The notes below the pieces were generated by a model. The model was not told the DNA's origin. It did no database searches and was given only the letters and a program-made list of their open reading frames with translations. From Carnobacterium mobile DSM 4848 (GTDB lineage: Bacteria; Bacillota; Bacilli; Lactobacillales; Carnobacteriaceae): a stretch of DNA of 64,000 nt. Made by a program: the position numbers and the translations under genes. The stretch lies in the NCBI RefSeq assembly GCF_000744825.1, contig NZ_JQMR01000001.1, forward strand, positions 62,001 through 126,000, written 5' to 3'. Shown here piece after piece: positions 37,154 to 61,312 of this stretch (positions are counted from its first letter, which is position 1; every line of letters starts with the position of its first letter).

Positions 37154-37627
37154 CATTTCGGCCGCGCCGAAATGGTCTGACTTAAGCTAATAAAATCTGT
37201 TGCGTGACCTAACTAAGATGCAGCAACAAACTTAGGGCAGGATAAACTTCTTTGCGTGACTTAACGGGTTATGATTTCTCTACTTATGTCACGCAATACC
37301 TATTTAAGTGCCCTAACAAGTAGTAGGTGCTCTCTTTAGGTCACGCAAATCAAATTTTAAAAATATTTCAATGCGGTTCATTTCGGAGGCAGCCGAAATG
37401 GACTGACTTGAGCTAATAAAGTCTGTTGCTTGCCCTAACTAGGAGGCAGTAACAAACTTAGGGCAGGATAAACTTCTTTACGTGACTTAACAGGTTATAA
37501 TTTCTCTACTTATGTCACGCAACACCTATTTAAGTGCCCTAACAAGGATTAGGCACTCTCTTTAGGGCACGCAAATCAAATTTTTAGACCATTTCAATGC
37601 GGTTCATTTCGGCCCCAACCGAAATGG
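37154..37627 (+). repeat. Tandem array of two 226-bp modular repeats (array A)
   Basis: Palindromes of the form CATTTCGG-N-CCGAAATG start at 37154, 37379 and 37605, giving periods of 225 and 226 bases. Arms are constant while the inner bases differ between copies. Each unit between them carries six copies of a TTGCGTGMCYTAA-like motif in alternating orientation, about 30-50 bases apart, forming three inverted pairs. The two units are alike through their whole length. Nothing codes for protein. The same unit occurs at 41810-42510 inverted, and as single copies at 40579 and 48957. Confidence 0.9.
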
Positions 37628-41707: not shown

Positions 41708-41809
41708 TTTGCACTCTCCTTTCTAGCTGAATGTCCGCAAAAACTACTTTTTTATTTCTATAAATGGAACTTTATTTATCAAATGAACTTTAGCGGTATC
41801 AAGTCAGAC

Positions 41810-44140
<2,331 letters not shown>

Positions 44141-56340: not shown

Positions 56341-56600
56341 CATTCAATGTCTAGCAGGACAAGCATGCCTCTCGGAAATTAGATAAATAAGGACCTAAAG
56401 TCTCGCTATGCGAGCTTTATACTAGTCGACGTAACCAGCTAAAGCTGGAAGTCTCTTAGCAATTGCGCTCTGTGATGCTCATTTGCCATGGCTCTTGCCA
56501 TTTTAATGGCTTAGAGACAATGGTACACTTGAGCTTTGCTCACAGTACTACTTTCCTAAATTTCTTTCGAGTCAGGGCGGGTTTGTCCCGCTTTTCTTGC
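56341..56600 (+). ncRNA. Candidate structured RNA in the intergenic gap
   Basis: No protein gene is visible. Several hairpins lie in series: AAAG-CTCGC/GCGAG-CTTT (56397-56418), CCAGC/GCTGG (56435-56448), a 10-bp stem GTCTCTTAGC/GCTTAGAGAC (56451-56460 with 56509-56518, one mismatch), TGAGC/GCTCA inside GTAC/GTAC (56523-56548), and GCGGG/CCCGC followed by TTTTCTT (56577-56598), which looks like a terminator. This density of stems ending in a terminator suggests an RNA gene on the plus strand. I recognise no known class. A repeat or decayed element remains possible. Confidence 0.4.
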
Positions 56601-57324: not shown

Positions 57325-58257
57325 TCAGCTGAAATTGAAAGGAAAAGGCGGGATTTTAAAGTGGTTCATGATTTCCTCAATATAAGGATTTTCTTCGCCT
57401 AGTATCCGTGTTAACCCTTCTTGCATTTTAAAGTAATCTAAGTAACAGAAATAATCACGTAATGTAAAAAATTCTGGTAGTTCAGGTGTATGGAATTGCA
57501 GGCGTTTTTGAATAACATTGCGTTCTGCTTGGTAATTGAAGTCAGAAACGAGATGAAAAATCGACATGACTTCGCCTTTTAAAAGTTGTTGGACATAGTA
57601 AAGACTAGCTGCGCGCTCTAACTGATCATAATAGCCTCGTTTACCCAATGGCAGCAACAAACGATGTTGATTTCGGCAAAATAAATAGGTTAGACCATCT
57701 TTAGAATTTTTCTCTGCGTGCAATACATGGTGCATACCATACCAATTCGTATGTGCGGAGCTGGGTCCTTTTTCAGGAACAAAGGCTTCCTCTCCAAGAA
57801 CATAAGGACAACATTTCTGAATACCCAGACTCCTTCCTAGTAAGCTAATGTTTTTATAAGAAATTCCTTTGTGTTTAAAGTACCGTTCCATGATTGTACC
57901 CGAGTATTCAGTCGTTTTTAAAGGAGATTGGTTTAACTGGAAAACAATTGTATTGAACGGCGAAACTTTAAAGCGGCTGATATCAAATACATAAAGCGTT
58001 TCTTCGTTTAATAGAATACAGGTGTGCTCAAAACTCATATCGAGTAAGGGGTGAATATTTTGATGTGAAATGATTAAAGGTTCGATGTTTTGTTTCGGAA
58101 CAAAGTAGTCATAGGAAGAAGCGGTTTCGTAAAGGTGGCCATGCTTTTCATTTTGTCTATTTACATTGGTGACTAGAGACAATTTTGACTTTTCATAGAA
58201 TTTTTTTCCCTTTCTGTAATATTCTATTGCTTGTTGGTGCTGAAAGTTTTTTACCAT
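57325..58257 (-). CDS. ComK-like competence transcription factor (tentative)
   Basis: 310 residues. The central part agrees with ComK (PF06338) in order: HTCILLNEETLYVFD, then ISYKNISLLGRSLGIQ (compare the G-S..GR..G segment of ComK), AFVPEKGPSSAHTNWYGMHHV (F.P..S...NW...V, quoted in part), and HRLLLPLGKRGYYDQLERA, like the LP.S...F..Q..RA segment. Bacillus ComK is about 190 residues; this protein has an extra 50 residues before and about 100 after. ComK activates DNA-uptake genes by binding A/T boxes. It is divergent from a sigma factor gene, a fit with a competence role. The assignment is from memory of the family. Confidence 0.6.
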   Translation of the reverse strand: MVKNFQHQQAIEYYRKGKKFYEKSKLSLVTNVNRQNEKHGHLYETASSYDYFVPKQNIEPLIISHQNIHPLLDMSFEHTCILLNEETLYVFDISRFKVSPFNTIVFQLNQSPLKTTEYSGTIMERYFKHKGISYKNISLLGRSLGIQKCCPYVLGEEAFVPEKGPSSAHTNWYGMHHVLHAEKNSKDGLTYLFCRNQHRLLLPLGKRGYYDQLERAASLYYVQQLLKGEVMSIFHLVSDFNYQAERNVIQKRLQFHTPELPEFFTLRDYFCYLDYFKMQEGLTRILGEENPYIEEIMNHFKIPPFPFNFS

Positions 58258-58705
58258 GAAACATTCCTCATTTCTTTTTTTTGTTAAAACCGTAACATGA
58301 TTAGATTGTAACCGATTTCAATATAAAAATCAGTATTATTTAAGCTGCCATTAAATTATTAGTGTTTTTTAATCAGTTCCTCTTTATGTTCAGTAATAAA
58401 AAAAGAAACGGAACGAGAATGAGCCATTTTTTTAGTGCTTTTTGAAGGAAAGGGTCTTCTTCTCATTTTATTTTTACTCTTTTTCTATAGAAAAGGCATC
58501 AAAACAAGCTTCCTAACTTTTTTATTTTTTTAATAAGAAAATTTTTCTTTTTTTAGTCAAACTGAGAACAATTTCTGGCATAACGAGTGATTTCTTGATT
58601 TTCGGCTGGATTTTAACTGCTTTTGAGCTTTTGTCGGAATCAACTGCTTTCGAGTACTCTATGAGTGTACAAGGCCTTGTAACACTTTTTGAAGGAATGA
58701 TGAAG
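58258..58705. other. Divergent control region between ComK-like and sigma factor genes
   Basis: Very AT-rich with several A-tract/T-tract pairs, for example AAAATTTTTCTTTT at about 58540-58555, similar to the AAAA-N5-TTTT boxes bound by ComK but with altered spacing. No clear -35/-10 pair was identified for either gene. A longer reading of the sigma gene (TTG 58595) is possible but has no ribosome binding site. Confidence 0.45.
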
Positions 58706-59251
58706 ATGCTCAGAAAATTAGCAGTAGAAAAGGAAGAAGCGTTTTTTGAACGGCATTCTGGGATTGTATTTGGTGCGTTAAAAAAAGAAGGTGTATTGCG
58801 TTCTTATCCCGATTACGATGATTATGTGCAACAAGGTCTATTAAAGTTAGTAGAAGCTTATGAAACATTTCCACAAGACCCCGAACACCCTGAATTCATT
58901 TATCCATTTGGTGGTTTTGCATTCAGAAAGGTACAGTGGCACATTCGTGATTTACGCAGAAATCAATATAGAATCCACTCGAATGAATCGGCTTGGCCAG
59001 AATTTATGGAAGAGAACCACCCTGATACACAGCCGTGGTTTGAAGAAAACTGGCTGGAAATGGAACTATTCAAGGAAATGCTGCTGTTATTAACTGCTAA
59101 AGAACAAGGCTATTTAATTGATGCTGTTGTCTACCAATTGACCGTAACGGAAATTGCCCAAAAAAACCAAGTGAGTCGCAAGACCATTTACCAATGGAAA
59201 AAACGGATCCAACAAAAACTTGAACATTTTTTAGTTTTTTTAAAAGAATAA
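58706..59251 (+). CDS. Sigma-70 family factor, SigH/ComX-like
   Basis: 181 residues from ATG 58706, 9 bases after GAAGGA; two nearer ATGs overlap that site. Region 2 is visible as YPDYDDYVQQGLLKLVEAYE with FGGFAFRKVQWHIRDLRRNQ, matching the SigH/ComX group. Region 4 is LLLLTAKEQGYLIDAVVYQL and TVTEIAQKNQVSRKTIYQWK, a helix-turn-helix for the -35 box. Such factors control competence genes in Lactobacillales. The ComK-like gene is divergent and two DUF proteins follow, as in other lactic acid bacteria. Confidence 0.78.
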   Translation: MLRKLAVEKEEAFFERHSGIVFGALKKEGVLRSYPDYDDYVQQGLLKLVEAYETFPQDPEHPEFIYPFGGFAFRKVQWHIRDLRRNQYRIHSNESAWPEFMEENHPDTQPWFEENWLEMELFKEMLLLLTAKEQGYLIDAVVYQLTVTEIAQKNQVSRKTIYQWKKRIQQKLEHFLVFLKE

Positions 59252-59340: not shown

Positions 59341-59544
59341 ATGGAAAAAGAATGGAATAAAGGCGCAGTTGCAGTTTATTTTGAGGATATGGCCAATGAA
59401 AAAATCATTAAACGCAATTACTCAGATGCAGTGCAAGGAGTCACACCAGAACAAGTAGAAGGCTTCACAAATACACTGGAAACATTAACTACACTGCCAG
59501 CTTCATATACTGTGGTAGTAGAAGAATACCGCTACGTTCGTTAA
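59341..59544 (+). CDS. DUF1659-type small protein
   Basis: A 67-residue protein with KGAVAVYFEDMANEKIIKRN and YSDAVQGVTPEQVEGF, resembling DUF1659 (PF07872). Partners of DUF2922 are common downstream of sigma factor genes in lactic acid bacteria. The function is unknown. CAGGAGGG precedes its ATG. Together with the next gene it forms the same pair order as elsewhere in the order. Confidence 0.75.
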   Translation: MEKEWNKGAVAVYFEDMANEKIIKRNYSDAVQGVTPEQVEGFTNTLETLTTLPASYTVVVEEYRYVR

Positions 59545-59651
59545 TACACTGTTTGACCTGTCCACTGATTCTTTTGTTTAATGGCAGAGCATCAGTTGCA
59601 GAATCTATTTAAAATCAGCCTTTCCAAAAAAATTAAAGGAGGAAAAATACA

Positions 59652-59876
59652 ATGGCAAAATCACTAGAGTTAAGATTCAATACAAGTTTAGGAAAAGCAA
59701 AAACAATGAGTGTGCAAGATCCGGTCTTGGATCTATCACCCGAGGATGCACAAAAAGCGATGGCTGATATTATCGCTTTAGACTTGTTCGAAAAAGAAGG
59801 CGTTAACCTTTATACCTCTGTAGTTGGAGCGCGTTACGTTGAACGAGTAGTGGAAGATATTTTTGAAGTAGAATAA
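59652..59876 (+). CDS. DUF2922-type small protein
   Basis: A 74-residue protein: SLELRFNTSLGKAKTMSVQD with PVLDLSPEDAQKAMADII and GARYVERVVEDI, the DUF2922 (PF11148) pattern. It has AAAGGAGG 9 bases before ATG, a strong initiation site. The function is unknown. It is the last gene before a good terminator and the 52-bp repeat array. Confidence 0.78.
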   Translation: MAKSLELRFNTSLGKAKTMSVQDPVLDLSPEDAQKAMADIIALDLFEKEGVNLYTSVVGARYVERVVEDIFEVE

Positions 59877-59888
59877 CTGTAAAAAATA

Positions 59889-59931
59889 AAGGCGTCGGTT
59901 TAGTTGAAAGACTAAGCTGGCGCCTTTTTTG
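59889..59931 (+). terminator. Terminator after the DUF2922 gene
   Basis: AAGGCGTCGGTTTAGT pairs with ACTAAGCTGGCGCCTT around TGAAAG, then TTTT. Confidence 0.82.
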
Positions 59932-60029
59932 TAGAGTATGATAAAACAGTGTAGGAAAATAGAGGTAGATTAAACTTTTATAGCCTTTTACTTGTTTTGT
60001 ATTTGGTAAAGGGCGATATGTTAAATAAA

Positions 60030-60445
60030 GCCGGTCTAGCGAACAAACGGAGCAGGAAATAGGAGAGAAGTGTCTGCTAGAGCCGGTCTAGCGAATAAAA
60101 GAAGCAGAAAACAGGGAAGAAATGTCCGATAGAGCCGGTCTAGCGAACAAACGAAGTAGGAAACAAGTAAGAATTGTCTGGTAGAGGCGGCCTAGCGAAC
60201 AAACAAAGCAGGAAACAGGGAAGAAATGTCCGGTAGAGTCGGTCTAGCGAACAAACGCAGTAGGAAACAGGGAAGAGATGTCTGCTAGAGTCGGTCTAGC
60301 GAACAAACGGAGCAGGAAATAGGAGAGAAATGTCTGGTAGAGGCGGTCTAGCGAACAAACGTAACGCAAAACAGGAGTGATTTGTCTGGTAGAGGCAGTC
60401 TAGCGAACAAAAGAAGTAGGAAATAGGGAAGAAGTGTTAAGTAGA
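60030..60445. repeat. Eight direct 52-bp tandem repeats
   Basis: Units begin exactly every 52 bases at 60030, 60082, 60134, 60186, 60238, 60290, 60342 and 60394. Each has GGTCTAGCGAACAAA (or a one- or two-base variant) at its start, then a GCAGGAAA.AGG..AGA segment and TGTCTGGTAGAG. Units differ by several substitutions, but no unit changes length. Period 52 is not a multiple of 3 and no long ORF covers it. The remaining sequence of the 806-base gap (59877-60682) has only a terminator, a short element also found near 56555 and the start of the next gene's leader. Confidence 0.95.
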
Positions 60446-60682
60446 ATCACACTGGTTAATAAAAAAATAAAAAATCAATAAAAAAGCTCTTATCAAAGGT
60501 CCTAATGTTTGTTTTTCCAAATTTCTTTCGAGGAAAGACGGGCTTATTCACTTTTTTTGTTTGAGACAAACCTTAGATAGTAAGTTTTTGTTGGAAAAGA
60601 AGAAAAACGTGAATTTAACGAAAGAAACCTGTAGAATGTAAAGAATACAAAAGTAACCGGAACATAAAGGGTGTGAAAAAGG

Positions 60683-61312
60683 ATGAGAACAGTAAAAAAC
60701 AAAAAAATGAACCAACTTATTGCTTGGGCGACAGTCATCGTCTGGATGGGATTGATTTTTTACCTTTCTTCTCAACCAGCAGGAGAATCATGGAATCTCA
60801 GTTACGACATGATGAAAGTAACTGTACAGGCAGTTAAAGTATCTCAAGTCCTTGTTAGTCTGGTGTTGGCCTATGTAGTAGGAAGATTTTTAAAAAAGAA
60901 AAATAAAACGATCGGGTTAAAAGAACTCATTGGAATTGCTGTTATCATCGGCGTGCTGTATGTAGTGTCAGGTATCTTGCTGCGGCATTTTGCTCCGTCT
61001 GATCTGCATCATTTTATTAGGAAAAATGCTCATTTTTTTATTTATATGGCGTTAGGTTTTCTGCTCAAATATGCATTGAAAAGCAGTGGGATAACTGGTT
61101 TGAAAGCTGTAGGAATTGGACTGATAATCTGTGTTCTTTATGCTTTTTCAGATGAATTTCATCAATATTTTGTACCAGGAAGAGGGGCATTGTTGAGCGA
61201 CGTGATGATCGACAGTACAGGAGCGACTATAGGAATTGCATTACAAAGCCTATTCAGCAGGATAACAAAGCCGGTATGGTTAAAAGGAAATGCTGAAACA
61301 ATTAAAAAATGA
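60683..61312 (+). CDS. VanZ-like membrane protein
   Basis: 209 residues with five to six membrane segments. The VanZ family motifs (PF04892) are visible: FYLSSQPAGESW near the first helix, HHFIRKNAHFFIYMALGFLL and YAFSDEFHQYFVPGRGALLSD with DVMIDSTGATIG, each quoted in part. VanZ of enterococci gives low teicoplanin resistance, but most homologues have unknown roles. It is a single gene with AAAAAGG before ATG 60683, and lies between the 52-bp array and pepC. Confidence 0.88.
   Translation: MRTVKNKKMNQLIAWATVIVWMGLIFYLSSQPAGESWNLSYDMMKVTVQAVKVSQVLVSLVLAYVVGRFLKKKNKTIGLKELIGIAVIIGVLYVVSGILLRHFAPSDLHHFIRKNAHFFIYMALGFLLKYALKSSGITGLKAVGIGLIICVLYAFSDEFHQYFVPGRGALLSDVMIDSTGATIGIALQSLFSRITKPVWLKGNAETIKK

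Follow-up and report, generated by a model that had tools for sequence, protein, structure and literature searches.

A 52-bp tandem repeat array of Carnobacterium mobile is a module of a dispersed non-coding element and shares a dyad-plus-linker unit with arrays of other genera

The locus and its array

The window, that is the whole stretch of 64,000 nucleotides of Carnobacterium mobile DSM 4848 analyzed here, harbors a tandem array of 52-bp units between a pair of small genes and a VanZ-like gene (Table 1). One gene of the pair encodes a DUF2922 protein; the DUF1659 match in the pair reaches 23.8 bits, slightly below the cut-off. The first-pass annotation had placed the array behind a terminator, before vanZ and in non-coding DNA, and this location was confirmed by a hairpin recognised by eye, by the PF04892 match and by the lack of any ORF of at least 60 aa overlapping the array, which also rules out a coding repeat. 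Moreover, 52 is not a multiple of 3.

TRF describes the array with period 52, 7.9 copies, 81% matches, 2% indels and a score of 499 (60029-60437), against a maximum of 52 in 100 order-1 Markov resamples of 59501-61000. The eight units are identical to a hand-typed consensus at 42, 49, 46, 48, 46, 47, 40 and 45 of 52 positions. A period of 52 across all seven steps had been claimed, and indeed each step is 52, the rows being ungapped and free of any indel. The same annotation had counted exactly eight repeats from 60030. The array is real, but its natural register begins eleven bases earlier, at the TGT at 60019, and because a ninth unit lies in register, the array has eight good units and a degenerate one, whose identity is matched by 5e-5 of shuffles.

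Table 1. Features of the array locus in window coordinates, and 51-bp arrays of the same genome (G000:C1).
Feature	Position	Strand	Remarks
Upstream gene, DUF2922	59652..59876	+	PF11148, E 5.6e-22
Terminator-like hairpin with T-run of the upstream DUF1659/DUF2922 genes	59888..59930	+	By eye
5' module of the dispersed element	59931..60018	+	Genome matches and copy alignment
52-bp array, eight ungapped units	60019..60434	+	Each unit an imperfect 27-bp dyad plus a 25-bp purine-rich linker
Degenerate ninth unit	60435..60486	+	28/52 identical; similar ones end copies L010, L015 and L018
Shortened 3' module	60487..60559	+	Compared with complete copies; boundaries by eye
Downstream gene, VanZ-like	60683..61312	+	PF04892, E 3.3e-22
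3' module of a second element copy without array	56395..56487	+	G000:C1:118395-118487, E 3.8e-15
51-bp arrays L269-L276, first four	G000:C1:1143433-1143720, 1192051-1192360, 1375509-1375716, 1559613-1559769		
51-bp arrays L269-L276, last four	G000:C1:1678575-1678985, 2271758-2272016, 2417932-2418219, 2510347-2510634		

The window also contains, at 37154-37627 and 41801-42514, two arrays of 226-bp tandem repeats with a palindrome of the type CATTTCGGCC..GGCCGAAATG. A ComK-like protein (PF06338, E 2.5e-5) is encoded among the genes at 57325-58257 (-) and 58595-59251 (+). Its gene adjoins one whose product weakly matches sigma-70 region 2 and HTH, as well as the DUF1659/DUF2922 pair, and this neighbourhood is possibly a competence-related locus.

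A dispersed modular element

The core GGTCTAGCGAACAAA, which had been proposed as a query for the rest of the genome, recurs in C. mobile, frequently 52 bp apart, and two single cores are found at 1599088 and 2088092. One or more units are present at 13 C. mobile loci. The element is composed of a 5' module, n units of 52 bp and a 3' module, and is located behind gene terminators. The 5' module, common to many copies, starts after a T-run; the window element begins directly 3' of its hairpin and T-run, and the other copies are mostly preceded by a T-run too. Eight matches to this module were found in C. mobile at E up to 0.01, the weakest (0.003) being probably due to chance, and single weak matches (E 0.002-0.01) occur in five other genomes. 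The 3' module has about 220 nt and is present in some copies. In the window copy its start CTCTTATCAAAGG and its tail AATTTCTTTCGAG..GACGGGCTTATTCACTTTTTTTG are kept and the middle is absent. There are 16 matches to the 3' module at 15 places in the C. mobile genome; three of these places belong to arrays and the other 12 show no array match. In copy L245 the 5' end is joined straight to the 3' part. Several C. mobile copies terminate in hairpins that resemble terminators (by eye).

Outside C. mobile, the 3' module left one remnant in a genome of the same genus and had no match in the other 16 genomes of the family, and a comparison of the array DNA with 58 other relatives gave one weak match (E 6.9e-7). 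In G003, of the same genus, the order of small-gene pair (recognised by eye), terminator and VanZ gene is retained without the element. A modular, non-coding element is thus dispersed in C. mobile, with that remnant in one further genome of the genus, and the array is its amplified module.

If the origin is taken to lie next to dnaA and the terminus opposite, the element has leading-strand orientation at 13/13 unit-bearing loci and in 11/12 copies without array. The p value of this bias (24/25) is 0.007 at a baseline of 75% and 0.03 at 80%, both baselines being assumed, and it is only mildly surprising, because genes are usually biased likewise. A promoter in the 5' end of the element (TATTATAA) was considered and rejected, as no constant -35 could be seen by eye. 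A group II intron, suggested by insertion behind terminators, was also discarded, since no such match occurs among the Rfam matches at E up to 1.

Unit length

Neighbouring units in ten C. mobile loci are separated by forward steps of 52 in 46/46 cases. This is the free measure of the spacing: a set of 57 units from 11 loci, in which TGT, TAGAG, CTA and ACAAA are nearly invariant, was cut in 52-bp steps and includes neither loci L006 and L019 nor the degenerate units at array ends. The consensi of nine C. mobile loci differ by 592 substitutions over 36 ungapped pairs, whereas the 5' module, taken as a control (seven copies, 21 pairs), shows 58 internal indel events per 354 substitutions, or 61 per 402 with end gaps counted; in both comparisons the pairs are not independent. 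The first-pass claim that unit length matters passes this control, with constant steps beside an indel-rich module. In the wider set, TRF gave period 52 on 105/107 arrays, all chosen for that spacing, the other two having no TRF row, and indels are rare: 0% in 80 arrays, 1% in 15 and 2-6% in 10.

The same search at 51 bp detected a second satellite class in the C. mobile genome, with eight loci and TRF period 51 in 8/8. Its units are mostly TGTCC..GGACAAAC and can be read as TGTC-N18-GACA, that is, 26+25 bp. Arrays with 51-bp units are also present in four relatives (G004, G013, G016 and G015), and array L273 has some 50-bp steps. By eye, some of the 51-bp arrays come after a stop codon without an obvious terminator. 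At 53 bp, the search of 18 genomes returned three one-mismatch matches, none of them array-like in the C. mobile genome; a repetitive-looking TGTC match with one mismatch at this spacing (G008:C60:21215-21377) is possibly an irregular array. The 51-bp control rules out 52 as the only length. Because of this second class, a fixed unit length holds within each class (27+25 or 26+25) and not universally. The earlier idea of about five DNA turns is the weaker part of the first-pass reading, as 52 is not unique.

A dyad shared with other genomes

Named genomes were scanned for five TGTC at 52-bp steps on either strand, which gave at least 80 loci in at least 117 stretches. By title, the loci among the matches listed are mostly from Bacillus and related genera, together with Paenibacillus, Cohnella, Trichococcus, two clostridial records and a few from other phyla. 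Among these listed matches, GACA stands exactly 23 bp after TGTC in 52/86 array consensi and at any other offset in at most 2/86, and at least three of the four GACA bases are matched at offset 23 in 65/86. The 86 arrays include a few adjoining ones (81 once merged) and four Bacteroidales/Colwellia loci (L114, L123, L160 and L178) that were excluded from polarity counts. The compensation and mismatch analyses used 65 arrays, after removal of the 21 that have no near-GACA at offset 23. Finding arrays by TGTC conditions the period, the TGTC and partly the GACA, and could favour dyads about twofold, but not 26-fold. Arm complementarity in the 65 arrays, again among the matches listed, amounts to 298/455 pairs against a mean of 151.5 and a maximum of 196 in 2000 permutations that swapped arms among arrays.

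Published consensi, which had not been chosen by motif, point in the same direction: 7/27 match at least 7 of the 8 bases, with 0.37 expected, and in 17/27 the stem is reached by at most 3% of 60 shuffles. In the family of the window, the consensus stem is reached by at most 1/100 shuffles in only 11/26 arrays; for the window array it is reached by 18/100. Six of the eight window units are one mismatch (AACA) away from TGTC-N19-GACA and none fits exactly (0/8). The single dyad pattern is no detector on its own, since the window has 22 one-mismatch matches with 15.6 expected, six of them inside the array. Reversing the pattern of the 52-bp TGTC search left 7 matches against 48 real ones in C. 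mobile, and 128 against 45 in G008, a member of the same family whose arrays repeat other words and have other dyads. TGTC-N19-GACA therefore defines a large subclass and is not universal. Many arms retain mismatches, and several arm families occur within one genome, so that a single protein would not suit all arrays if it read the arm in full.

Constraint and location

The dyad is better kept than the loop and the linker. Within the 65 arrays (509 units), the mismatch rate is 0.078 in the right arm and 0.103 in the left arm, compared with 0.166 in the loop and 0.138 in the linker; GACA (0.038) and TGTC (0.059) are lower still, both partly lowered by the way the arrays were selected. Unit number changes between sister species at orthologous loci (12/8, 6/13 and 5/4) with unit length unchanged, and a fourth pair, truncated where the stored sequence ends, has 4/12 units. 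In the pair L113/L139 the dyad is identical at 26/27 positions and the linker at 10/25. In the other three pairs the values for dyad and linker are 25/27 and 23/25, 22/27 and 21/25, and 24/27 and 20/25, so that the dyad-over-linker contrast is small in three of the four pairs. L087 and L089, from two species of one genus and with similar flanks, carry 52-bp arrays with different unit sequences. In G008 the flanks are common to array copies, as in the C. mobile genome.

Arrays lie between convergent genes in 32/89 cases, compared with 47/277 of the other gaps in the same loci (p 3.2e-4), and in divergent gaps in 13/89 versus 67/277 (p 0.08). Gene calls for this test were plain ORFs of at least 80 aa, which overlap 25/107 arrays. 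The convergent-gap bias is compatible with neutral tolerance. A general rule for the polarity of arrays relative to transcription was not adopted, as the signal is weak (27/40 tandem contexts, p 0.04, C. mobile included); outside C. mobile the counts are 3/5 in the family and 19/30 tandem contexts in the named genomes.

RNA or DNA

The first-pass annotation had seen stems of the form GCTAGA-GCCGG-TCTAGC at some unit junctions. GCTAGA-GNCGG-TCTAGC is exact at units 2 and 6, but only there, and the loop GCCGG occurs in unit 2 only. The stem holds as a dyad in DNA, but not as a compensated RNA stem. Within the 65 arrays, compensatory double changes show no excess (4 observed, 4.8 permuted), and neither do Watson-Crick cells (3970 observed, 3970.5 permuted). 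G-T exceeds A-C slightly, by 135 to 103 without orientation (p 0.044), by 128 to 110 when oriented by the linker (p 0.27) and by 79 to 58 in the 35 most purine-biased arrays (p 0.09). The fold energy of the whole array is no better than that of shuffles (z +1.15 and -0.65), and no Rfam family matched the arrays. Compensation at chance level speaks against a selected RNA stem, which is not supported despite the slight G-T excess, and together with the ordinary fold energy makes a dyad at the DNA level preferable. The arm complementarity between arrays also fits cruciform or hairpin readings and keeps them alive.

Relation to known repeats

Tandem repeats of 52 nt in Bacillus and other Firmicutes were described in 2020-2021; according to Subirana and Messeguer (2021), their sequence is not conserved and their function is not known (PMC8161180). 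These satellites are non-coding, mostly of 4-10 units, with a constant 52-nt unit (51-53 in places) and families listed at 50-54 nt; the sequence is species-specific, several families occur per genome and short signals are kept (PMC8161180). Among the ideas discussed are stabilisation of the nucleoid by a protein polymerising along the DNA and the production of small RNAs from the arrays (PMC8161180). The length constraint suggested by the first-pass annotation had thus been published before. The window array resembles these satellites in its constant 52-bp unit, its non-coding nature, the several arrays and families per genome and its species specificity. Distant PepC-like matches in plasmids (17 records, the best at 48% to a Listeria record) agree with a host in the Bacilli. 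Unlike them, it lies inside a modular dispersed element; a TGTC-N19-GACA dyad is common to many arrays, while no conservation was reported (PMC8161180); and discrete 51-bp and 52-bp classes are found in one genome, that of C. mobile. Neither the common dyad geometry, nor the dispersed-element modules, nor the two classes in one genome appeared in the open-licence literature searched, where the satellite kind itself is known.

REP/BIME repeats, which are associated with RAYT transposases, are short imperfect palindromes that are dispersed, sometimes in tandem, and carry a constant tetranucleotide at their foot. The arrays are similar in their imperfect, dispersed and tandem palindromes with such a tetranucleotide, but differ in their exact period and linker, and no Y1 (IS200-like) transposase (PF01797) was found in the genomes of C. 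mobile and of five other family members with 52-bp TGTC matches. PF01797 is present in 2/18 family genomes, G004 (which carries a 51-bp array) and G009, and both lack 52-bp TGTC matches. On this ground a REP/RAYT repeat was rejected. A CRISPR array was also discarded, as unique spacers are lacking and the linkers are similar copies of each other. The boxB of pneumococcal BOX elements is about 45 nt long. In the elements described here, as in BOX (PMC3049150), end modules surround a core that can be absent or multiple, and many copies are dispersed. BOX is likewise reported to be enriched between convergent genes and to have 60.8% of its copies on the leading strand (PMC3049150). The core studied here belongs, in contrast, to a wider kind of satellite, and the likeness is one of layout, not of membership.

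Interpretation

We give a probability of about 0.5 to the reading that the array is a 52-nt satellite of the Firmicutes type, carried as a module of the element, whose dyads form a phased lattice read as DNA by a putative protein. A putative DNA-binding protein, dimeric or polymerising, would read each dyad of 26-27 bp as double-stranded DNA, and the 25-bp linker would hold successive sites near the same helical phase. Phased dyad sites would explain the loss of indels from arrays that nevertheless accept substitutions in linker and loop. Unit number may change by slippage or unequal recombination, whole units at a time, and such turnover would homogenise the linker. However, the fixed polarity in C. 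mobile (13/13 on the leading strand) is not predicted by a symmetric site, and the 51-bp class, the 50-bp steps in L273 and the published families of 50-54 nt are further counterpoints to a lattice. The interpretation of the first-pass annotation as a whole is partly supported. A broader proposal, which we consider rather doubtful, is that the Firmicutes satellites of 52 nt and 51 nt form, for the most part, a single system, with a dyad of the TGTC-N18/19-GACA type and a 25-bp linker, in which a putative conserved DNA-organising protein would read ends and spacing and the arms would drift.

A neutral or selfish satellite, with the unit inherited in a parasitic element, its length fixed by whole-unit change and common ancestry and nothing bound to it, is a possibility of some weight, though below likely. 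It would account for flanks common to the copies in C. mobile and G008, for unit numbers that differ at orthologous loci and for the convergent-gap bias, which is reported for BOX and IS elements as well (PMC3049150). It does not lead one to expect arms that change less than linker and loop within arrays, 46/46 steps of 52 beside a module with 58 indels per 354 substitutions, or a single dyad geometry across many genera. An array transcribed as a chain of hairpins (a sponge, a 3'-UTR stabiliser or a small-RNA precursor) appears unlikely to us. The 52-nt satellites of B. coagulans are reported to be transcribed (PMC8625621, PMC8161180), and the terminator-like ends of several copies, the one polarity at unit-bearing loci, the complementary arms and the slight G-T excess (p 0.04-0.27, by orientation) agree with an RNA; yet compensation in the 65 arrays and fold energy are ordinary, no Rfam family is matched, an RNA loop would be free to vary but the TGTC-GACA offset is invariant, and polarity to genes is weak outside C. 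mobile. Arms that differ between arrays and stay complementary, with several arm families per genome, would also suit hairpins of single-stranded or cruciform DNA recognised by shape in replication or recombination, with attC-like or REP-like logic as a model; TGTC/GACA would close the stem and the arms could vary as long as they pair. The chance-level compensation within arrays, the many arms that keep mismatches and the absence of a REP-type Y1 transposase from the six family genomes with 52-bp TGTC matches make such hairpins very improbable. Returning to the phased dyad lattice, the fixed geometry of the dyad, the two length classes and the empty site in a sister species make the question "why 52?" testable, and lead one to ask which protein binds TGTC-N19-GACA and what effect units of 50 or 53 bp would have.

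Neighbouring repeats and RNA elements

A second, palindrome-rich element of about 150-200 bp (..AGCCATGGA..CCATGGCT..) was recognised by eye in three family genomes, downstream of the unit in L006 and also in L108 and L110, where no Rfam family matched. There is a Guanidine-I riboswitch at L015:2433-2531 (-), near another copy of the dispersed element. A further 52-bp array with a divergent unit (L085, G000:C1:126120-126516) is located about 4 kb downstream of the window array, just past the end of the window, behind a gene for a phosphonate-binding protein.
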